A DNA stretch of 21,933 nt. Origin: a virus. The stretch is taken from positions 1 through 21,933 of IMG/VR virus record IMGVR_UViG_3300037264_004909; one strand, 5' to 3'. The notes under the pieces were generated by a model that saw only the letters and a program-made list of their open reading frames with translations, was not told where the DNA came from and searched no databases. Positions 3,201-15,970 of the stretch are shown in pieces; within the stretch, counting starts at the first letter, position 1; each line of letters begins with the position of its first letter. The position numbers and the translations under genes were made by a program.

Positions 3201-3485
3201 GCGTGACTCGGCGACAGCGTTGCGACCAATCTCCAGGGCTGCGTCTGAATCCGGCACCATATCGTTCGCGGATCGGAACACCCGGGCCCAGTCACCACCG
3301 AAGTCTTTCTGCCAAAGCTGAGCTGGAATCTCTTGCTGGTAGTAGGTGCCGACGGGGGCACCGGTCAGGATGGCGGGAGCCGCAATGTCGTTGGGGTCAC
3401 CGTCGTACGAGCAGAACGTGGCCGTTAGGAATGATGGTCGTCGTCCCAGCTCGTCGGCGGCAAACGTTTCGAACGGTGTTGGCAT
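237..3485 (-). CDS. Large tail fibre with YadA-head-like repeats
   Basis: A 1082-aa tail fibre/adhesin. The N-terminal ~330 residues are a mixed globular part that probably attaches to the baseplate. From about residue 370 the protein becomes Gly/Ala/Ser-rich with short alternating repeats like the left-handed beta-roll heads of trimeric autotransporters. Two related modules end this pattern: ADNGWQLGPGSN...SLQVGTG near residue 620 and ADNSFQLGQGAN...SMQVGTG near residue 958. The last ~60 residues, ending in SWYEVSRSIN, resemble the C-terminal tip domain common in phage fibres. The start ATG overlaps the upstream stop by one base (TGATG), with GAGGAG 8 nt before it. The middle of the gene (about 880-2400) is visibly poorer in GC and uses more A/T third positions than its neighbours, which suggests exchange of the receptor-binding part. 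Fibre is a confident call; the ligand is unknown. Confidence 0.85.
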   Translation of the reverse strand: MPTPFETFAADELGRRPSFLTATFCSYDGDPNDIAAPAILTGAPVGTYYQQEIPAQLWQKDFGGDWARVFRSANDMVPDSDAALEIGRNAVAESRASILISNLLFGRQVSFQIETEEADQFSFTNNSYNDPSELASFMLSNLSILGLDDEIIPIVVSDTSIRIERSLPGTGSSLTLNQTTNSDPLITYSIGIGSTTYGEAELPARRWVVDQDLIPAVDNQFSFGLEAAAASPAEVFLWSGAWGDATLELVINDTTPFQLILTGAVTDAATAQLEVQALIVAAGLDTVLASEVVALPAALLVGDTVRIYTLTPGFDQSIYVAKAFDGSTSLYSRPYPGLGVVILGGTDIRGSDAQAAARWRELAVRDLSTEKIKSLTIEGDTSSVLFAEDVGLTNIHGGAIFGHVVNVDGLGTALINRLNDSFLLGSSVFVEDGGLAEINATGGTVLAHVYVGTDASALVHAYYGGEVVATAIAYGLAARAEATAADYATCRGYVEADTGSVSRLTATPQGHVRGVSLAYAEGSSQAVAGVSYYDPSFCDAYVYSEGVASSAIARATGKASHAFGRVSSVGGFAALLEASGTASFVNAYIESVAANASAVASGIGSGAFGYALDADIIASADNGWQLGPGSNTEPMSLQVGTGMRLLQDAPAVPKVGDLWPGIESLIVPSAIEPHVDNTSALGNEFVRWANVLSAKGTFAEKQASGGVESLNIETTGILAGTVGATVGGIAALFAQRGLSIGRALVSGDGYASLLSTDGIAFGVSLTIDGNANVIAYGGGFAHGKAESETPTSSVGILAGQAGANAGGYAYAITGVASIQAHVEGSVARGIAYSFDSGGAEVSSMFGDAPFATGAAISESSFNAVVRATGSAAFASASSYAPVGALGDATVEASGRGAVATGSANSLNGAAGIAASGEGSHAGGAADGFSITASGRGALGFGLAITANIEALADNSFQLGQGANVVANSMQVGTGWSSRAGGATASRKEPVVLGATDVTFAVTSSFAEVTGDAGGNTIATITGGYEGMRLLLLFIDALVTVTDDNTHAADTVDLSGVFTSADDSVLELVHDGTSWYEVSRSIN

Positions 3486-5245
3486 CAGATGGTCTCCTCA
3501 AACGCCAAAAGCTGGGCTGTGCCGCCAGAGTTGGTGCCGGCCGCGACGGTGTCGAGCCAGATCAGCGTCGTAGGATTCACGCCGACGGCGTCGATAGTGT
3601 AGCCATTGATGACCGGCGGGGCCGTGCCGATCGGCTGTCGGATCGACTGGCTCGCCGTCGCCGTGAATTGTCCGGCCTGCACCTTGCTGAAGTCCGAGAC
3701 TTCGGCGCCGATCGCCGTGGTGGTGGCGAAGGCCGCGAACGTGAGATCGCGCTGCACCATGCCGCCCAGCGCGTAGCTACCGTCCCCGCTGATCGTGCTC
3801 TGCGTCAGGCCGGCGAGGCCGGTGGCCAGCAAGGCCTCCCACGTGAACGTGCCCTTCTCGTCAGGGACCAGCTCGCTCACCCGCAGGCTGCGGGTCCACA
3901 CCGATGGTCCTCCGGCCCACATGCCTAGGAACGTGCCTCGGGACCCGCCGGAGTCGGCGTCGAGCGCGGGCGCCGACAGCAGCGGCTGGTTGCTCGACAA
4001 CGTGATGACGTGGTCCTGGGCCGCTGTCCCATTGTTGCCGCCGCTGCGAAGCCGGGCCGCTGGCTCCATCACCATGATGGTCGGAGCCACGTTCGCGATG
4101 ATGACGACCGCGTTAACGGTCGTCTGGGCCCCGTTGGCGTTCCTGGTCATGAGGTAGCGGAAGTTGGTCGTGGCCCCGTTGTAGATGGCGCCGGCCGTGC
4201 ACGTCACCGACTTGCTGCCCTCGAAGACCGCAGGATTGGCAATGGACAGCTGGGCGGCCGTAGGGTCGGAGTACGCGATCGAGTTGTAGTCGGCGGCCGT
4301 GTTGATGACGGTCGCGGACTCGACACCCTTCAGCGCGCCCTGGCCGCCAGGGTACACGACCAAGCTGACGGCACCGCTCGGGTGCAGGTTGTTGAGCGTG
4401 ACGACGTGGACCCCGTCGGTGGTGCCGCCGCCGAAGTTCGTGTCGCGGGTCGCGGAGTACGCGGCCGTCACGGAGTCGCGGACCCGCACGCGAGCAGCCA
4501 GCGCCTGCGCTGCAGTACCTCGATTCGCAATGGTGATCGAGACGGTGGCGGATAGGCCTGACGGCACCGCGATCTGCTGCGAGATGCCGGCCCCGAAGTC
4601 CTGCACGTCCACCTGGTCGAACGCCTTGTCGGCCGTGACCTGGACCTGGAACGTGTCGCCGGCCTTCACCTCGGTCTGCAGGCCGCCCGGCCCCGTCGGG
4701 TACGGACCCGTGAACGCCGCCGCCGTTATGGCGGGCGGGAGGTCGAGCGTGACGTCGCAGGTGTCGAGCGCGCCGTCCTCGCCGTCCGGCGTCAGCACGA
4801 CCGCTTCGATCGGGCCGCTGGCGCCCAGCATGATCGGGACGCTGCCGGAGTAGTACGCGCCGGACACGCGCGTCAGTTCTGCATCGACGCCGGCGACCCG
4901 GACCAGCGGGTAGCTGGCCCGCACCACGATGTTCATGGTCCCGGTCGAGACCGTCGCGGACTGCAGCACCGTGTTGGCCGGGTCATCTTGGAAGATCCGG
5001 TTCGTCACGGACTCGCCGCCCGCCACCGTGATGTTCTCGATGTAGATCCAGCCGCCCCCGACCGCGACCGGCTCATCGTGCCAGTTGGTCAGTCCGAAGC
5101 CGCGCTTGACCTGCGAGCGGATGGCATTGAGGTCGTCCTGCAGCGAGGCCGCGTCGGTCTCGAGCGTGGGTCCGAAGGGCAGGTCGTCGTCGAACGTGTT
5201 GGACTGGCGGATCTGAACGTCCTGGTCGAGCTTCGTTCGTGCCAT
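3485..5245 (-). CDS. Beta-rich fibre or baseplate protein
   Basis: This 586-aa protein is almost wholly Thr/Val/Ala/Gly-rich beta sequence, as in phage fibres built of Ig-like or similar sandwich domains. The N-terminus (about residues 1-50) differs: a polar segment (LDQDVQIRQSNTFDDDL) then a helical stretch (SLQDDLNAIRSQVKRGFG). I read this as a trimerising or attachment region at the baseplate, a pattern seen at the start of many fibre proteins. There are no catalytic motifs, so enzymatic depolymerase activity is not supported. The gene lies 24 bases after the 242-aa gene, and its TGA overlaps the fibre ATG by one base, so the two are probably translated together. The ATG at 5245 has no strong Shine-Dalgarno. 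The role is inferred from position and composition; it could equally be a baseplate wedge or side-fibre adaptor. Confidence 0.65.
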   Translation of the reverse strand: MARTKLDQDVQIRQSNTFDDDLPFGPTLETDAASLQDDLNAIRSQVKRGFGLTNWHDEPVAVGGGWIYIENITVAGGESVTNRIFQDDPANTVLQSATVSTGTMNIVVRASYPLVRVAGVDAELTRVSGAYYSGSVPIMLGASGPIEAVVLTPDGEDGALDTCDVTLDLPPAITAAAFTGPYPTGPGGLQTEVKAGDTFQVQVTADKAFDQVDVQDFGAGISQQIAVPSGLSATVSITIANRGTAAQALAARVRVRDSVTAAYSATRDTNFGGGTTDGVHVVTLNNLHPSGAVSLVVYPGGQGALKGVESATVINTAADYNSIAYSDPTAAQLSIANPAVFEGSKSVTCTAGAIYNGATTNFRYLMTRNANGAQTTVNAVVIIANVAPTIMVMEPAARLRSGGNNGTAAQDHVITLSSNQPLLSAPALDADSGGSRGTFLGMWAGGPSVWTRSLRVSELVPDEKGTFTWEALLATGLAGLTQSTISGDGSYALGGMVQRDLTFAAFATTTAIGAEVSDFSKVQAGQFTATASQSIRQPIGTAPPVINGYTIDAVGVNPTTLIWLDTVAAGTNSGGTAQLLAFEETI

Positions 5246-8883: not shown

Positions 8884-11424
8884 CTACTCCTCACCGATGG
8901 AGACGCGGCGCTGGAACGACGAGGCGTCTCGGCCACGCCCCACGCGCGACATCGTCTCCGCCAGCACGTCGCCGTCCACGCTGAACGACGCCTGCAGGTT
9001 GATGTTCTCCGGGCCCGTCGGGCGACTCTGCATCGCCGCAAGCGCATGGTTCAGGCCAGCAAGGCTGGACTCCATCGACTCGCGCCTACCCGATGCCTCC
9101 GCGCCGGCCGGGAACGGCTCGCTGCTGAACGGCATCGGCTGACGCCGGGTCTTGGTGATCCCAGCACCAGGCTCCCTTTCGCCTAGCGCGTCATAGGCGA
9201 GCCCGGCGAGCCGCGCCGGCGCCAGCGTGGTCCACGTGAGTAGTTTCACCACCGGCAGGTCGAAGAACTCCTTCACCTTGTTGATCATGAGCGTGATCGC
9301 GGTGAGGACGACCGTGGTGGCGTGCGCCATCCAGCCCAGCGCAGAGACCACGCCACCGAGCACGGCGGCAAGAACGATCCCGGCCTTCACGAGAAGGTTC
9401 ATCGCTGCAGTGAAGCCGCTCACCTTGTCGTTCGATGTGCCGAAGCCGATCCCGAGCTGCACGAACAGCCTATCGAGCGAGTCGAGGAAGAGGGACACCC
9501 CGGGCTCTGCCACGTCCCAGAAGATCCTGGCCATCTCAACCAGCGTGGTGCCGAGCCTGGCAATCCACGTCACGCCCTCGACGAGCACGAGGGCGAGCTT
9601 GCCGATCGTCTCCCCGAGCGCGATACCGCGCGCATTGGCATCTGCGGACGGAGCGCCAGCAAACGCCTCCATCGAGTCGCCCGCGAACCCAAGCGCCCGC
9701 CCAAGCTCGAAGAACGCGACGACCAGCAGGTTGATCGTGTAGGCGTTCTGGTCCATGAACGCTCCGAATCCGCTCGTCAGTCCCTCGAAGAAGCGCTGGA
9801 TGCGGAAGCCGATCGCGTAGACGTTGGAGATGAACTGGAGCAGCCCCTCGTTCTCCGCCTTCGTCAGCTCGGCCACGAGCGGCCCGGAAATGCGGCCGGA
9901 TGAGAACAGCTGCGACAAGGCATCGAACGCCATGAACGCGTTGTCCTTGAAGCGCTGCAGCATGTCGCCCAGCCCGCCGATGTTCCTGCGAACTGCCACA
10001 GCGAGCGCACCGATGGCGACACCGAGTGCTCCTGCGGCAGCGATCACCGGCAAGGCACCGGCAGCGAGCCCTAGCAGCACCGTGCCGAGCACCTCCAGTA
10101 CCGGGATGAGGAGCGTGATGGTCAGGGCCGCTGCCGTCATCCCGCCGAACGCGACCATGGCGAGACCGACGGCGCCGACGATGCCCATCATCGCCGTCTG
10201 CACGGGCTTCGGTATGGCATCAAAGACCCTGATCGCCACGTTCAACGTCTGCGTGAGAGCCTCGACGAACGGCGCGAACAGGCGCGCCGATGGCTCACCG
10301 AGCACAACGCCGAGCGTCTGCAGCGTGCCAGTCAGGAGCGTCTGCTGGCCCTTGAACGTCTCGAGCAGCTTGCCGGTAAACTCCTCCGTCACGCCGGTCG
10401 ACCTCTGCATCTCCTCGCGCAGCGCGGCAATGGCGTCGCGTCCAGACAGCGTCACCTCTCTTCCATCTCGCATGGTCGTGAACTGCGCCTGCTGGATGGC
10501 GTTGAAGGCGAGCATGCCGCGCGCTCCGAGGGCATCCACTATGATCGCGTTGCGGCGCTGGTCCGTCATCCCGGTCGTCGCGTCGACGAGGTCCATGATG
10601 ATGTCGACGGAGTTGCGCATCGCCCCGGTCTGCTTGTCGAAGATGTCGACCTGGGCACTTGCAACGGCCGCCTGCGCGCCCTGGTCCGATGCCAGGCGCC
10701 GGACGGCCTCGCGGAAGGCCGTGGCGCTCGAACTGGCGTCGATGTTCCTGTTGCGCAGGAGACCGACCGTGATGAGCACATCGTCCAGCTCGGTGCCGAA
10801 CGTGGCGCCGGCAGCCGCCGCCTTGGCCAGCCCGGTCTCGAAGTCCTTGGTGGCGAAGTTGGTGAGCTGCGTGATCCGCAGCAGGCGGTCGGTGACGTTG
10901 CCGGCCTCCGTCGCGCTCATGCCGTAGGAGTTCAGCGTGCCCACGATCGCCGCCGCGGACTCGGCCATGCCCAGCTCGCCCAACGAGGCTGCTGCTAGGC
11001 CGAGAGTCGGGAGCAAGGTCTCCGTAGCCTGCTTGGCCGTCTGACCAGCCGTGGCCAGGCTGAGCAACCCTTCCACGGCTTGATCTGGGGAGAACTGCGT
11101 GGCGATACCGGCGTCGATCGCCGCGCGTCGCAGCACGACCATCTCCTCGGAGGTAGCTTTCGTCACTGCGCCGACGCCGGCCAAGGACCGCTCGAAGTTG
11201 CCCGCTTGGTTGGCGAGCGCGAAGAGGCCCGTGATCGTCCCGGCCCCTGCAGCCATCGTCGCAAGCGCGCCGCCGAGCCCGAGCGCTGCAGCCTTCATCA
11301 CGCTCGCTGTCGCGGTGCTCTCGCGCGCCAGCCCGGCAATGCCGCTGTTGACCATGCGGATCTGCGCAGACGCCTGATCCTGGGCGGAAAAAATGAAACC
11401 CATGCCCCACTGATTTAGTGACAC
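8884..11424 (-). CDS. Tail tape measure protein
   Basis: This 846-aa protein sets tail length and is packed in the tube lumen until ejection. Residues ~75-330 carry the TP901-type tape measure core: FERSLAGVGAVTKATSEEM, the FSPDQAVEGLLSLATAGQ segment, and NFATKDFETGLAKAAAAG. A small Ala/Gly-rich hydrophobic block lies at residues ~43-70 and a long one at ~410-480 (MMGIVGAVGLAMVAFGGMTA onward). These are typical of tape measures that insert in the host membrane. At the usual 0.15 nm per residue it would imply a tail of about 125 nm (inference). The start is GTG at 11424 with only a distant GGAAAGG about 11 nt upstream. An internal ATG at residue 8 is an alternative. The homing endonuclease gene lies just upstream on the other strand and separates this gene from its chaperone. 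Confidence 0.93.
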   Translation of the reverse strand: MSLNQWGMGFIFSAQDQASAQIRMVNSGIAGLARESTATASVMKAAALGLGGALATMAAGAGTITGLFALANQAGNFERSLAGVGAVTKATSEEMVVLRRAAIDAGIATQFSPDQAVEGLLSLATAGQTAKQATETLLPTLGLAAASLGELGMAESAAAIVGTLNSYGMSATEAGNVTDRLLRITQLTNFATKDFETGLAKAAAAGATFGTELDDVLITVGLLRNRNIDASSSATAFREAVRRLASDQGAQAAVASAQVDIFDKQTGAMRNSVDIIMDLVDATTGMTDQRRNAIIVDALGARGMLAFNAIQQAQFTTMRDGREVTLSGRDAIAALREEMQRSTGVTEEFTGKLLETFKGQQTLLTGTLQTLGVVLGEPSARLFAPFVEALTQTLNVAIRVFDAIPKPVQTAMMGIVGAVGLAMVAFGGMTAAALTITLLIPVLEVLGTVLLGLAAGALPVIAAAGALGVAIGALAVAVRRNIGGLGDMLQRFKDNAFMAFDALSQLFSSGRISGPLVAELTKAENEGLLQFISNVYAIGFRIQRFFEGLTSGFGAFMDQNAYTINLLVVAFFELGRALGFAGDSMEAFAGAPSADANARGIALGETIGKLALVLVEGVTWIARLGTTLVEMARIFWDVAEPGVSLFLDSLDRLFVQLGIGFGTSNDKVSGFTAAMNLLVKAGIVLAAVLGGVVSALGWMAHATTVVLTAITLMINKVKEFFDLPVVKLLTWTTLAPARLAGLAYDALGEREPGAGITKTRRQPMPFSSEPFPAGAEASGRRESMESSLAGLNHALAAMQSRPTGPENINLQASFSVDGDVLAETMSRVGRGRDASSFQRRVSIGEE

Positions 11425-11468
11425 GGTTGGATTTGCCTTTCCGGCGAAAGGTTGCTATCAGGGTCGGC

Positions 11469-12173
11469 ATGACCAAGTGGAAGCCTGTGCATGGATACGA
11501 TAACAACTACTCCATCTCGGACGATGGCCGAGTGCGGCGCGATACCACGCGGACCTGCGCTCAACGCGGAACGTTCCTCAAAGAGTTTGCCGACCGCGAC
11601 GGATACACGCGCGTCGCCCTCTCGCTGCCCGGGCGCGGGGGACGCCAGCACGTTGTCCATCGCCTGGTGTGGGAGGCATTCCATGAGGCCATTCCCAAAG
11701 GGCTGCAGATCAATCACATCAACGGAAAGCGGCAGGATAACCGGCTCGAGAACCTCGAGCTTGTGACGTGCTCCGAAAACATCCGCCACGCCATCCAGGT
11801 GCTCGGTCGCGACTATGGCGGAGCCAATAATCCATCGGCACGGCTCACCCCGGCCGAGGTGGTTGAGATGCGCAAAGAAGTGGCTCAAGGGTACAAGCGC
11901 GCTGACGTTGCCATCCGATACGGCATCACTATGGTGATGCTGCGAAACATCACCACCGGGAAAAGCTGGACCAGCGCAGGTGGCCCCATCACGCCATCTC
12001 GAGCGCTGGCTCGGATGCCACACGAAGTGCTCGCGCGACTTGGTCCCCGGGACGTTGCTGAAGCCGTCCGCCGCCATCGCGCAGGCGAGAGCGCAAAGGC
12101 GCTCGCTTGTGAGTACGAAGTAACCGCGACCACCATCCTGAACTGGGCCAAGGGCAGAACACGCCGAGGGTAG
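11469..12173 (+). CDS. Free-standing HNH homing endonuclease (NUMOD4)
   Basis: The only gene on the plus strand; 234 aa from ATG 11469. Residues 3-25 are a NUMOD4 motif (WKPVHGYDNNYSISDDGRVR), which supports this start over an in-frame GTG at 11418. Residues ~60-105 are an HNH nuclease domain of the SPO1/I-HmuI type: HRLVWEAF, then INHINGKRQDNRLENLELVT, with His64, His83, Asn91 and Asn95 as likely active-site and metal-binding residues. Two helix-turn-helix-like segments follow (RADVAIRYGITMVMLRNI and AKALACEYEVTATTILNW), likely for target DNA recognition. Such enzymes nick or cut an allele lacking the gene and copy themselves in. It sits antisense between the tail chaperone and tape measure genes. 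A weak promoter-like pair lies just upstream (TTGCCT at 11433-11438, 17 bp, TATCAG at 11456-11461). All key residues seem intact, so it may be active. Confidence 0.93.
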   Translation: MTKWKPVHGYDNNYSISDDGRVRRDTTRTCAQRGTFLKEFADRDGYTRVALSLPGRGGRQHVVHRLVWEAFHEAIPKGLQINHINGKRQDNRLENLELVTCSENIRHAIQVLGRDYGGANNPSARLTPAEVVEMRKEVAQGYKRADVAIRYGITMVMLRNITTGKSWTSAGGPITPSRALARMPHEVLARLGPRDVAEAVRRHRAGESAKALACEYEVTATTILNWAKGRTRRG

Positions 12174-12198: not shown

Positions 12199-13163
12199 TT
12201 ACCCCGCCGACGGCTTGCCTCCTAGAGCCCTGGATTCAAGGCGCCGCCGCTCGCGCAGCCACTCCACGTGGCTCTCGATCTCGCCGAGCCCCATCTCCAT
12301 CACGTCGGCCCGGGTGAACGAGTACCCGGACCCGCCGTGCTGCGAGTAGCAGAGGTCCCGGATGAGCTGGTGAACGTCCCGCCGATCGTGCAGCGGGAAG
12401 AGGCCGCCTACCGTCTCGCGGAGGCCCGGTTCCGTGACCGCGGCAGGAAGAACCCCGCATCGAAAGGGAGCGACACGTCCATGTACTCCCGGCAGCGCGG
12501 GCAGATGACCTCGAGCGCCGTGTCGATCCCGCCGTCAACCGCCTCGAACGCATCGAACATGGTCGTCAGGTCGGCGGCTCGGCAGTCCTTCAGGAACGCC
12601 GCCACGTCCTTCGGCCGCGCGATCACTTTGTCAGCCTGCTGGATGCGAATGATGCGCGGCACGAGCATGTCGATGATGGTCGGCGACTCCTGCACGAGCG
12701 ACATGGCGGCCCGCTCGTCGGCCCCGACCGTCAGCTTGTAGGTCACCGTGGCGCCGTCGATGTCGACGCTGAACTCGTTGCCAGACTTGAACGCCTCGAC
12801 GGACTCGGCCGGAAGCGCCTTCACCGGGAGCTGGTCAAGCGGGAGGTCCCACCAGAACTTCTTGCGCCGACACTTGCCGCCGCACGGCACCTGGAACTCG
12901 TACACGCTGCCGTGGGTCGCGACGCGGATCATCAGGAGCGTGTAGAAGCGATCGCACGTGAGGATCTCGGCCCACCGAGGTCTCCCGCCTTGCGCCAGCT
13001 GGTACGGCCCCGGGTCGCTCGTGCTCTGCCAGCAGGCGTCGAGTATCCGATCGAATGCCGCCCCGCTGGCAATGGCCGACTGGTCGGAGAGGATCTCCAG
13101 CTCCGCGCCCCTCAGGTGCCTGATGTCCCCGGAGAGCCCGGACGGACAGGTGATCGTGCTCAT
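12199..13163 (-). CDS. Tail assembly chaperone GT fusion by -1 frameshift
   Basis: A predicted 321-aa product made when ribosomes slip -1 at CCCTTTC (12468-12462). It comprises residues 1-234 of the shorter chaperone, ending VSLPF, then 87 residues read from 12462 to the TAA at 12201-12199. The second part has a clear protein-like pattern (FPLHDRRDVHQLIRDLCYSQ, GYSFTRADVMEMGLGEIES, WLRERR) and no credible start codon or ribosome site of its own, so it can only be reached by frameshifting. In lambda-type phages the short form (G) coats the tape measure protein and the T part of the fusion recruits tube subunits during tail assembly. The next minus-strand gene is the tape measure, as expected. 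The frame relation (-1) and the heptamer are read directly; the biological use is inferred from the well-known G/GT precedent. Confidence 0.85.
12408..13163 (-). CDS. Tail assembly chaperone, short (G-type) product
   Basis: A 251-aa zero-frame product, ATG 13163 to TAG 12410-12408, with a GGAAGG about 9 nt before the start. Two Cys pairs, PCGGKC (about residue 95) and ICPRC (about residue 220), are spaced as a likely structural zinc site. The second pair leads into YMDVSLPFDAGFF, a phrase typical of tail/baseplate chaperone proteins of myoviruses. The middle is helical (AAMSLVQESPTIIDMLVPRI). It lies between the tube gene and the tape measure gene, the standard tail-chaperone place, interrupted only by the endonuclease. 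The last 17 codons after the slippery site are the part replaced in the fusion form. It could alternatively be called a T4 gp26/gp51-like hub assembly factor; the frameshift favours the chaperone reading. Confidence 0.8.
   Translation of the reverse strand: MSTITCPSGLSGDIRHLRGAELEILSDQSAIASGAAFDRILDACWQSTSDPGPYQLAQGGRPRWAEILTCDRFYTLLMIRVATHGSVYEFQVPCGGKCRRKKFWWDLPLDQLPVKALPAESVEAFKSGNEFSVDIDGATVTYKLTVGADERAAMSLVQESPTIIDMLVPRIIRIQQADKVIARPKDVAAFLKDCRAADLTTMFDAFEAVDGGIDTALEVICPRCREYMDVSLPFDAGFFLPRSRNRASARR
12417..12454 (-). promoter_or_regulatory. Possible H-type pseudoknot stimulating the frameshift
   Basis: Stem 1 pairs GGTTCT (12454-12449) with GGAACC (12433-12428), 6 pairs including one G-U. 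Stem 2 pairs CGCGG (12442-12438), which lies in the loop of stem 1, with CCGCG (12421-12417), 5 pairs. Linkers are 6, 4 and 6 nt. The spacer from the slippery heptamer to stem 1 is 7 nt, within the usual 5-9 nt. Chance pairing is common in GC-rich sequence, so this is a hypothesis drawn by hand. Confidence 0.45.
12462..12468 (-). promoter_or_regulatory. -1 ribosomal frameshift slippery heptamer
   Basis: On the minus strand the bases read C CCT TTC, with zero-frame codons CCT (Pro) and TTC (Phe). This fits X XXY YYZ exactly, so both tRNAs can re-pair after a one-base slip (to CCC and TTT). The new frame is open for 87 codons, while the old frame stops 17 codons later. Position inside a tail assembly chaperone gene is where such sites are expected. 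Confidence 0.85.
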
Positions 13164-13231: not shown

Positions 13232-13693
13232 TCAGCCGATGTCGAAGAAGTCCTGGACGAGGGTGATCGAGCGCACCACGTTCTCGTCGGCGTTGTTGTC
13301 CCAGGAGCCGGCGATGAACTTCTTGACCCAGCAGCTCTGGACCCGCCACCGCATCAGCTCGGCGTTGTCACGGTCGAGCTGCACGATGTCCGCCGTGCGA
13401 CGGTAGAACGGGTCGATGAGGCCACCGTTCGCCGCGGCGTCCGCGCACTCCTTGAACCAGTCGAACAGCTCGAGGTCCTGCGTGGCGCCCTGCGTGAGCG
13501 TGATGTCGGGGAACGTGAGCCGCCCCGGGTCCTTGGCGAGGGCGATGAGGCCGCCGCCCTCCCACTGCTCGACCGTCGCAAGCTCCGCGGACAGCTCGGA
13601 GCAGTCCTGGAAGCCCGCGTAGCCGAGCCCGTCGATCTCGACGATGAACTTGAACTTCTTTGCGAACGTGCGAGGTGTCCCGAAAACTGGCAT
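13232..13693 (-). CDS. Tail tube protein (gp19-like)
   Basis: This 153-aa protein forms the hexameric rings of the inner tail tube. The order of segments matches the T4 gp19/CIS tube family: FKFIVEIDGLGYAGFQDCSE at the start (first tube strand), then a WEGGGLIALAKDPGRLTFPD loop with the 'tfpdiTLtqG' phrase, FDWFKECADAA, and a C-terminal IVQLDRDNAELMRWRVQSCW strand followed by SITLVQDFFDIG. The length is normal for the family. The ATG follows a GGAAGGAG site about 9 nt upstream and lies 27 bases after the sheath stop. Sheath followed at once by tube is the classic pair in contractile tails and the two are made in similar numbers. Confidence is high from sequence and order together. Confidence 0.94.
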   Translation of the reverse strand: MPVFGTPRTFAKKFKFIVEIDGLGYAGFQDCSELSAELATVEQWEGGGLIALAKDPGRLTFPDITLTQGATQDLELFDWFKECADAAANGGLIDPFYRRTADIVQLDRDNAELMRWRVQSCWVKKFIAGSWDNNADENVVRSITLVQDFFDIG

Positions 13694-13720: not shown

Positions 13721-15970
13721 TCAGAGACCGGCAGCCGCCAGCTCCTCATCGAGCGCACGCGTGTCCTGGCTGACCTTGATGATGATCCACTCGGTCGGCT
13801 TGTTCGTGGCCAGCCCGAGCACCACGTTCATTCGCTGCGCGAAGATCTCGCTCTCCGGGTTGATGCCGGGACCGACGTCCGTGTAGAACGAGGTCGACGG
13901 CGAGGTGCCGCGGAACGCGCCCTTGCGCCACTGCTGGAGCAGGAAGAGGTCCATGGACCGCTTCACGCTCGCGCGAAGGCTCGCGGTGCCGTTCTTGTGC
14001 CGCGCGTAGTCGATGCCGGCGCGGATCGACTGCTCGATGAACGTGACGCCCCGACGCTCGCCGATGCTCGGGAAGTTGCCGTCCTGCTTCAGCGTCTTCG
14101 TCCCGTCGACGTACCCGGGCGAGACGACCGGGTTGATGCACTCCGGGTACAGCAGGTCCCGCGTGGCCTCGTCGTCGATCTCGTCGGTCTCGGGCGCGAC
14201 CACGCCGGCCAGCTTGAAGCCGCTGTCGGTCCCGGCGGGCTGGTCGTACACGCCGCCGTCGCGGCGACCATCGACGCGGGCCCAGAAGCCGGCGATGAAG
14301 CCCGAGAGCGGGACCGTGATCGTGGCCACATTGCCGAACACGGAGGCATCCGGGTTCAGCACCTTCCAGTGCGGCCAGTAGACGACGCCGAACTCGGACA
14401 GGCCCTTCAGCGCTGCGGTCGTGACCACGTACGTCTTGGCGTCCTCCTTGGAGAGCCCGGCCGGCGTGTCGATGATGGCCTGGCAGCTCCCGCCGCGCTC
14501 GTTCTCGCAGTAGGAGACGAGGGCCGAGGCCACGGCCGGCGTGGGCTGGTCGGGGCAGATGATGGTGCGGATGTCGGGGCGGACATTGAACGACTGCATG
14601 CCCGTCTTGCTCACGGACGAGCCGATGAAGTCGAGGTCCACGAGGCCCGTGAGACCATCGTCGCCGCCGGTCATCGGGCCGAACGGGACCGGCGCGCCGC
14701 CGACCAGCGTGCTGTTGGCGGGACGCAGGCCAAGGAGGTCGGTCGCCACGGCGTAGTCGGAGCCGTTGTCCGCGTCGTTGACTACGTCCTCGACGTACCG
14801 CTCCGCCCCGGGCGTGATCGAGAGGTTGGCGAACAGCTCCTTCGCCACGCCCTTGAAGTGGACTGCGAGGTTGAAGTCGTCGACGGCGCCGTTGGTCGCG
14901 GCCGTGACGACGAACTCGACGTCGTTGCCGTAGGCACCATAGCTCTTGCCGTCGAACTGCAGCGTGGCCGCGGCGGCACCGGTGCCGCCAGAGTGGAGCG
15001 CGTTGTCGAGGCCGAGCTCGTCGTCGGCCGTGCTCGCCGCCCCGACCTGCACGCTCGATAGCGCCCCGGTCGTGTTCGACGCGATGCGGACTGCTCCGGC
15101 GACGTTGGTCACGGTGCAGCCTGCCACGGCTGCCTCGACCACGGCCTTCACCTCGGCCACTGCCACGGCGTCGATGTTCGCCACGTTGCCCGTGCCAGCA
15201 ACCGCGCCGGTCACGAATCCGAGGCGATTCACGCCCCCGCTGTTCGCGGTGCCGCCCGTCACGTTCACGCTGGAGCCGGAGCCGCGCGTGTCGGACGTGA
15301 TCCGCACAGCACCAACGAAGACCGTGGCGAAGGCCCCGACGATCTTCGCGTTGATGACCGCCGCCACCTCGAGCGCCGTCGCGTTCGTGATGTCGACGAA
15401 CTCGGCGGTGAGGAACGCGATGGACTGCACGGGCCCGCCGTCGATCGAGACGAGCAGCGTGAGCCCGTTGGTCAGGTCGAACGTCTCGACGTTCGCCGAT
15501 GTGCGCGCTGCCGCAGTCGCGGTGAACGTGGCCGTGAGCAGGCCGCCGCCGTCGACGGCCACGAGCAGCGTGTCGCCGGGCTCGAGGTCGAACGGAGCGG
15601 TCGCGCTCCCGAGGATCGATCCGGGCGTCGGGGCAGTCGCAGCGCTCAGGAGCTGCAGCGTGGCCTTTGCCGCCGTTGCCAGCACTCCGCCGTCGAGGTC
15701 GGAGTAGTGCGCGGTGCGGCACGACCAGAGTCCCTGGCCGCCGTTCTGGTAGAAGCCACGGACCTCGCTGCACGCGAGCCCGTCGACGATGTCACCGCCG
15801 AACACCTTGAACCACTCCGCGAACGACTGCGTGTACACGCTCTCGCCGATCGGGCCGCGCTGCATGAGGCCGACGATGGCGCACAGATTGGTCGGGACGC
15901 CCTGGATCGTTCTGATCTTGGGCTCCTCTTCTTGGATGACGGTCTTGGATGCCAGGAGTTCACGGCCCAT
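13721..15970 (-). CDS. Contractile tail sheath protein, enlarged
   Basis: A 749-aa sheath subunit; it polymerises round the tube and contracts to drive it into the cell. The N-terminal ~105 residues (PTNLCAIVGLMQRGP, AEWFKVFGG, YQNGGQGLWSCRTAHY) and the C-terminal ~350 residues match sheath proteins; the latter includes DIRTIICPDQPTPAV, SGFIAGFWARVDGRRDGGVYDQPAG, a YPECINPVV loop and RMNVVLGLATNKPTEWIIIK. Between them, about residues 115-335, is an insertion of Thr/Val/Ala-rich repeats (AVRITSDTRGSGSSVNV and AVRIASNTTGALSSVQV, among others) that makes it longer than many sheaths. The insertion would be exposed on the outside of the tail in known sheath structures (inference). ATG 15970 has GAGGTGA 4 nt upstream. 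The tube gene follows. Confidence 0.95.
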   Translation of the reverse strand: MGRELLASKTVIQEEEPKIRTIQGVPTNLCAIVGLMQRGPIGESVYTQSFAEWFKVFGGDIVDGLACSEVRGFYQNGGQGLWSCRTAHYSDLDGGVLATAAKATLQLLSAATAPTPGSILGSATAPFDLEPGDTLLVAVDGGGLLTATFTATAAARTSANVETFDLTNGLTLLVSIDGGPVQSIAFLTAEFVDITNATALEVAAVINAKIVGAFATVFVGAVRITSDTRGSGSSVNVTGGTANSGGVNRLGFVTGAVAGTGNVANIDAVAVAEVKAVVEAAVAGCTVTNVAGAVRIASNTTGALSSVQVGAASTADDELGLDNALHSGGTGAAAATLQFDGKSYGAYGNDVEFVVTAATNGAVDDFNLAVHFKGVAKELFANLSITPGAERYVEDVVNDADNGSDYAVATDLLGLRPANSTLVGGAPVPFGPMTGGDDGLTGLVDLDFIGSSVSKTGMQSFNVRPDIRTIICPDQPTPAVASALVSYCENERGGSCQAIIDTPAGLSKEDAKTYVVTTAALKGLSEFGVVYWPHWKVLNPDASVFGNVATITVPLSGFIAGFWARVDGRRDGGVYDQPAGTDSGFKLAGVVAPETDEIDDEATRDLLYPECINPVVSPGYVDGTKTLKQDGNFPSIGERRGVTFIEQSIRAGIDYARHKNGTASLRASVKRSMDLFLLQQWRKGAFRGTSPSTSFYTDVGPGINPESEIFAQRMNVVLGLATNKPTEWIIIKVSQDTRALDEELAAAGL

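Follow-up and report, generated by a model that had tools for sequence, protein, structure and literature searches.

A T4-related tail assembly chaperone in an uncultured contractile-tailed phage is very probably extended by −1 frameshifting on C CCU UUC

Tail assembly chaperone genes of phages can yield two products from one start. Is this the case for the chaperone gene in a 21,933-nucleotide stretch of viral DNA (IMG/VR record IMGVR_UViG_3300037264_004909; the window), or does the chaperone simply end at its stop codon? The initial annotation had proposed a lambda G/GT-type −1 frameshift, and the three elements that this reading needs are present at the locus:

12408–13163, minus strand: TAC-N, short tail assembly chaperone (gpG-like), 251 aa, with PF12322, phrog_150 and AF2 fold matches
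12462–12468, minus strand: slippery heptamer C CCU UUC, in the right phase and kept in relatives
12199–12462, minus strand: TAC-C, the T-like C-terminal domain in the −1 frame, 87 aa plus stop, with a phrog_20255 match and pN below pS

The chaperone ORF encodes a protein of 27.7 kDa. CCCTTTC occurs once within it, at 12468–12462 in the phase C|CCT|TTC, where it encodes part of an L-P-F motif 17 codons before the stop. The −1 frame has no stop from 12534 down to 12201–12199, and the segment after the heptamer (RCGVLPAAV...GKPSAG) is 87 residues long. The conceptual −1 fusion (TAC-NC) is 321 aa and 35.4 kDa. In the −1 frame, ATG, GTG and TTG are all absent ahead of the conserved core; the first such codons (12303, 12300 and 12294) lie inside it. 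Heptamer, open frame and lack of a start were thus all as initially described. Neither of two possible stimulators of slippage was seen in the window: the predicted 3′ RNA structure does not exceed shuffled sequences in stability (z 0.08), and there is no Shine–Dalgarno-like motif of the cyanophage type about 9 nt from the heptamer.

An open frame of 87 codons would arise by chance with a probability of about 0.12 at the 66 % GC of the window. Openness alone is therefore weak, and comparative support is needed. The L-P-F motif can likewise encode a heptamer by accident (P about 0.06 at this site), so a GC-rich chance ORF with an incidental heptamer had to be considered, and the related loci described below bear on it.

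The identity of the chaperone is clear from profile matches. It matches PF12322 (T4_baseplate) with E 3.5e-7 and 30.6 bits, above the curated cut-off of 24.5, and phrog_150 with E 4.7e-10. T4 gp26 and gp51 match both profiles as well. By these profiles, the window chaperone is a member of the PF12322/phrog_150 family of T4 gp26 and gp51, a relation of which the earlier reading made no mention. Direct hhalign comparison of the window-family alignments with those of T4 gp51 and gp26 was too weak for a link; the link stands because of the Pfam and PHROG profiles together with cyanophage and KVP40 intermediates. The AF2 model of the chaperone has a pLDDT of 89, and among its closest matches in BFVD, which reach E 1e-14, are hub and hub-assembly proteins of T4-like baseplates. 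Sequence searches of the PDB with the N and C domains gave no match, nor did a PDB fold search with the N domain. The protein also carries a zinc-ribbon-like four-cysteine pattern (C..C, CPxC).

The genes around the chaperone are those of a contractile tail:

8884–11424, minus strand: tape measure protein, the expected chaperone client (PhageMin_Tail, E 2.3e-29; phrog_1533, E 1e-43)
11418–12173, plus strand: homing-endonuclease-like HNH_3/NUMOD4 gene (family match), outside the frameshift system
13232–13693, minus strand: gp19-like tail tube protein, with which the C domain would be expected to interact (PF06841, E 1.6e-27)
13721–15970, minus strand: tail sheath protein of the contractile tail (phrog_17610, E 9e-41; tblastn matches to Streptomyces phage sheaths)

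The order of sheath, tube, chaperone, C domain and tape measure is the usual one for a tail chaperone, which lies here between the tube and tape measure genes, with the antisense HNH gene preceding the tape measure. This HNH_3/NUMOD4 gene separates the C domain from the tape measure gene; no gene occupies this place in the related contigs L001 and L002. A second ORF of the window (3485–5245, minus strand, 586 aa) matches phrog_15433, which is named tail sheath. The sheath proper is encoded at 13721–15970, and the name of phrog_15433 is possibly a misnomer.

The −1 frame is significant because of its conservation across related viral loci. Two IMG/VR contigs, L001 and L002, encode chaperones that are 60 % and 52–53 % identical to that of the window. 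Both have the CCCUUUC heptamer, and their C segments are 70 % and 60 % identical to the window's. A search with the C segment added nine loci (L006–L014); L008 and L009 are the same in sequence, which leaves 11 distinct loci including the window. The chaperones of the eight additional distinct loci are 26–41 % identical. The initial annotation had called the −1 segment protein-like and had raised the possibility that it lacks homologues. Homologues exist, and at every related viral locus found a same-family chaperone precedes the C segment, whose frame is offset from it by −1. The domain has a motif common to these loci, LCYxxHGGSG. In the part of the C segment past the 0-frame stop, pN is below pS (pN/pS 0.18/0.44, 0.25/0.44 and 0.23/0.36).

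Exactly one in-frame X XXY YYZ heptamer was found in the stretch examined at each of the 11 distinct loci. It is CCCUUUC in seven of them (the window, L001, L002, L007, L011, L012 and L014), CCCUUUG in L006, UUUUUUC in L010 and L013, and AAAUUUU in L008. The L-P-F codons of L010 and L013 are not slippery; UUUUUUC lies a few codons downstream instead. We calculated a codon null by recoding the same proteins with the codon usage of each locus, with independence assumed. For all 11 loci to carry an in-frame heptamer in the overlap, the joint chance is about 9e-10; leaving out the two closest relatives (L001 and L002) raises it to about 4e-7. CCT makes up 6–24 % of Pro codons, yet it is used at all eight heptamer-bearing [L/V]-P-[F/L] sites, with a chance of 6e-8 (1e-5 for the six sites that remain without L001 and L002). 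This second figure is not independent of the first, because the eight sites were chosen for carrying the heptamer. Joint conservation on this scale, together with a homologous, motif-bearing domain that is always in the −1 frame, makes the chance ORF with an incidental heptamer extremely improbable.

The same loci bear on whether the frames could overlap because of an error in sequencing or through decay of a gene once fused in frame. The window comes from one metagenomic record (21.9 kb), which leaves room for such a reading. Other viral records from separate assemblies show the same phase, however, and the extension is under purifying selection. A sequencing error at the junction of the frames, a concern raised at the outset, is excluded in practice because the independent contigs L001 and L002 are arranged alike. 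We regard error or decay as the least probable of the explanations considered, with a negligible chance of being right. The −1 homologues and the one in-frame heptamer at each distinct locus support the frameshift.

The C domain itself matches phrog_20255 (E 3.2e-4 for the window, E 3e-8 for L001). This family carries no assigned function, and its likely role is that of a tail chaperone C domain. A Pfam search with the domain gave no family, and a scan of the genome contigs gave no match. When compared by hhalign with the T4-type C domain, the window domain gave a weak match (E 0.013–0.07), equalled by 0, 1 or 9 of 150 column shuffles depending on the target. In BFVD, the second-ranked match of the window C model is a 57-aa protein of phage pf16 (TM 0.79 by target length), with an E value of 2.8 that is not significant alone. 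The ORF that follows the pf16 chaperone in the −1 frame, pf16_157, is also 57 aa, and the two were matched by length only. This predicted fold match is suggestive of a relationship between the window and T4-type C domains. A homology of the two would rest on position, helix pattern and the pf16 fold match.

The T4-like phages show how the same family is arranged elsewhere. The N domain takes up the phrog_150 profile as far as about column 235, and the remaining columns correspond to the C-terminus of gp51. The cyanophages P-SSM2 and S-PM2 match these two parts in different frames, offset by −1. The pair is annotated there as gp26 and a 57-aa gp51, and a single further codon follows UUUUUUC at the end of gp26. 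In P-SSM2, S-PM2, KVP40 and pf16 the C domain follows U UUU UUC or U UUU UUU in the −1 frame, the pf16 heptamer being UUUUUUU. When the pieces from P-SSM2, S-PM2 and KVP40 are conceptually fused, their alignment with T4 gp51 continues through the junction, and the C-domain profiles match gp51 (Prob 98, E 1.6e-13), where the domain is fused in frame. The fused form therefore exists in nature. T4 gp26 is the N form alone.

We found U UUU UUC to be invariant in 80 of 80 IMG/VR relatives of P-SSM2 gp26 (L063–L142), which are close relatives and not independent trials. The second Phe codon of the heptamer is UUC in all 80, whereas elsewhere in these ORFs UUC makes up 15 % of Phe codons. Ahead of the two Phe codons, the codon invariably ends in U, although the amino acid it encodes varies. 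Four codons upstream, Glu is encoded by GAG in 77 of 80 loci, nearby Glu being mostly GAA, and this places GAGG about 9 nt upstream of the heptamer. KVP40 and S-PM2 have GAGG at the same spacing.

These phages also provide the case for a different reading of the window, namely that the C domain is a separate small gene with its own start or expressed by termination–reinitiation, so that no fusion is made. The C domain of the cyanophages and KVP40 is annotated in this way, with an ATG just past or overlapping the chaperone stop. In 74 of the 80 P-SSM2-like loci an ATG lies 5 nt from that stop, so both fusion and reinitiation are possible there. Against a separate gene, the window offers no start codon ahead of the core, and one is likewise missing ahead of the match in L007 and L010. 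The heptamer is kept at the codon level, and T4 gp51 is a fusion. We consider a separate gene very improbable, although it is the strongest of the competing explanations.

The combined evidence makes it highly probable that 12408–13163 and its −1 extension form a programmed −1 frameshift cassette that gives TAC-N (28 kDa) and TAC-NC (35 kDa), as judged from sequence. We infer that most ribosomes would terminate at 12408 and release the 28-kDa TAC-N. A minority would slip by −1 on C CCU UUC (12468–12462), with the Pro and Phe tRNAs re-pairing on CCC UUU, and would read 87 more codons to give the 35-kDa TAC-NC; the shift itself and its efficiency are predicted from the arrangement of the locus. 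If the system works as gpG/gpGT does in lambda, the N part may coat the tape measure protein (8884–11424), while the C part may recruit the tail tube protein (13232–13693). Both TAC-N and TAC-NC would be expected to be absent from the finished virion.

Other arrangements occur in the family. In the Streptomyces phages BRock (L148, 7861–8944) and LuckySocke (L147, 7261–8368), whose loci were reached through the sheath protein, a C-domain-like ORF comes after a phrog_150 chaperone and is in the +1 frame relative to it. Both chaperones end in CUC UGA, which is reminiscent of the prfB +1 site, and the pieces are annotated as separate genes. In the Streptococcus phage vB_SagM-GXN1 (L025, 5869–6886), the sequence ...CGT CCC CGA is followed in the +1 frame by the C domain (A3 profile, E 0.003), and a +1 shift at CCC CGA is possible. 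The relation of chaperone and C domain is likewise +1 in RM378. In a 595-kb phage (LR756511; L026, 4656–5932), a chaperone gene of this family contains U UUU UUC, and its −1 extension ends in a short domain, which may be of the same kind as the chaperone C domain. A tentative view, to which we give somewhat less than an even chance, is that phrog_150 has kept a two-product output while the route of production changed several times: −1 shifts at C CCU UUC, U UUU UUC/U and A AAU UUU, apparent +1 shifts at CUC UGA of the Streptomyces phages, in GXN1 and in RM378, and separate genes in T4. On this view the window lineage would have arrived at a solution independently, using a slip site of its own, and its C domain has possibly been replaced.

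How does this locus compare with known systems? The likeness to lambda gpG/gpGT lies in a short and a long chaperone, a −1 slip near the end of the first ORF and a position beside the tape measure gene. Lambda has the heptamer GGGAAAG and a non-contractile tail, both unlike the window, and no lambda families were among the profile matches obtained. The gpE/E′ shift of P2 is −1 and that of Mu is −2. Both phages resemble the window in having a contractile tail and a frameshifted chaperone, but their slip sites differ, and their chaperones belong to what we take to be other protein families. Slippery heptamers besides GGGAAAG are common. The novelty implied by the initial annotation was overstated on this count, and also because frameshifted tail chaperones are standard in contractile-tailed phages, as in P2 and Mu (PMC5009743). 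The chaperones of the Vandenendeviridae and Andersonviridae, phage Adele among them, have a conserved −1 frameshift with the slip motif GTTTTT, and annotations usually list the C part as a hypothetical gene (PMC12846349). These chaperones represent another lineage with a slip motif other than that of the window.

The closest comparison is with the T4-like phages. A review from 2016 still gave T4 as an exception (PMC5009743). As cited in PMC12846349 and PMC10885494, Vladimirov, Gautam and Davidson (Virology 2022) describe T4-like chaperones of which some are frameshifted and others consist of a short gene and a fused long gene. Our picture of P-SSM2, S-PM2, KVP40 and T4 agrees with their work as cited there. 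We rejected as a new idea the view of T4 gp26 and gp51 as short and long chaperones, since according to the same two sources it was published in 2022. The chaperones of T4 (gp26/gp51), KVP40, the cyanophages and pf16 have the N-domain family in common with the window. KVP40, P-SSM2, S-PM2 and pf16 place the C domain in the −1 frame, as the window does, whereas T4 itself relies on two genes. Among the T4-like frameshifters examined the slip site is U UUU UUC/U, and those of the cyanophages and KVP40 have a Shine–Dalgarno-like motif 9 nt ahead of it, whereas the window uses C CCU UUC without this motif, and its C domain (phrog_20255) is weakly similar to theirs. The fusion is still missed by annotation, as the records of P-SSM2, S-PM2, KVP40, pf16, BRock and LuckySocke list separate genes. 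To our knowledge, a C CCU UUC slip site with a phrog_20255-type end domain had not previously been tied to T4-related chaperones. The system is very probably real and its mechanism is ordinary; what is new is the lineage, the slip site and the likely role of phrog_20255. Frameshifted tail chaperones of the T4 family thereby extend to an uncultured, GC-rich lineage of contractile-tailed phages, and C CCU UUC is added as a naturally conserved slip site.
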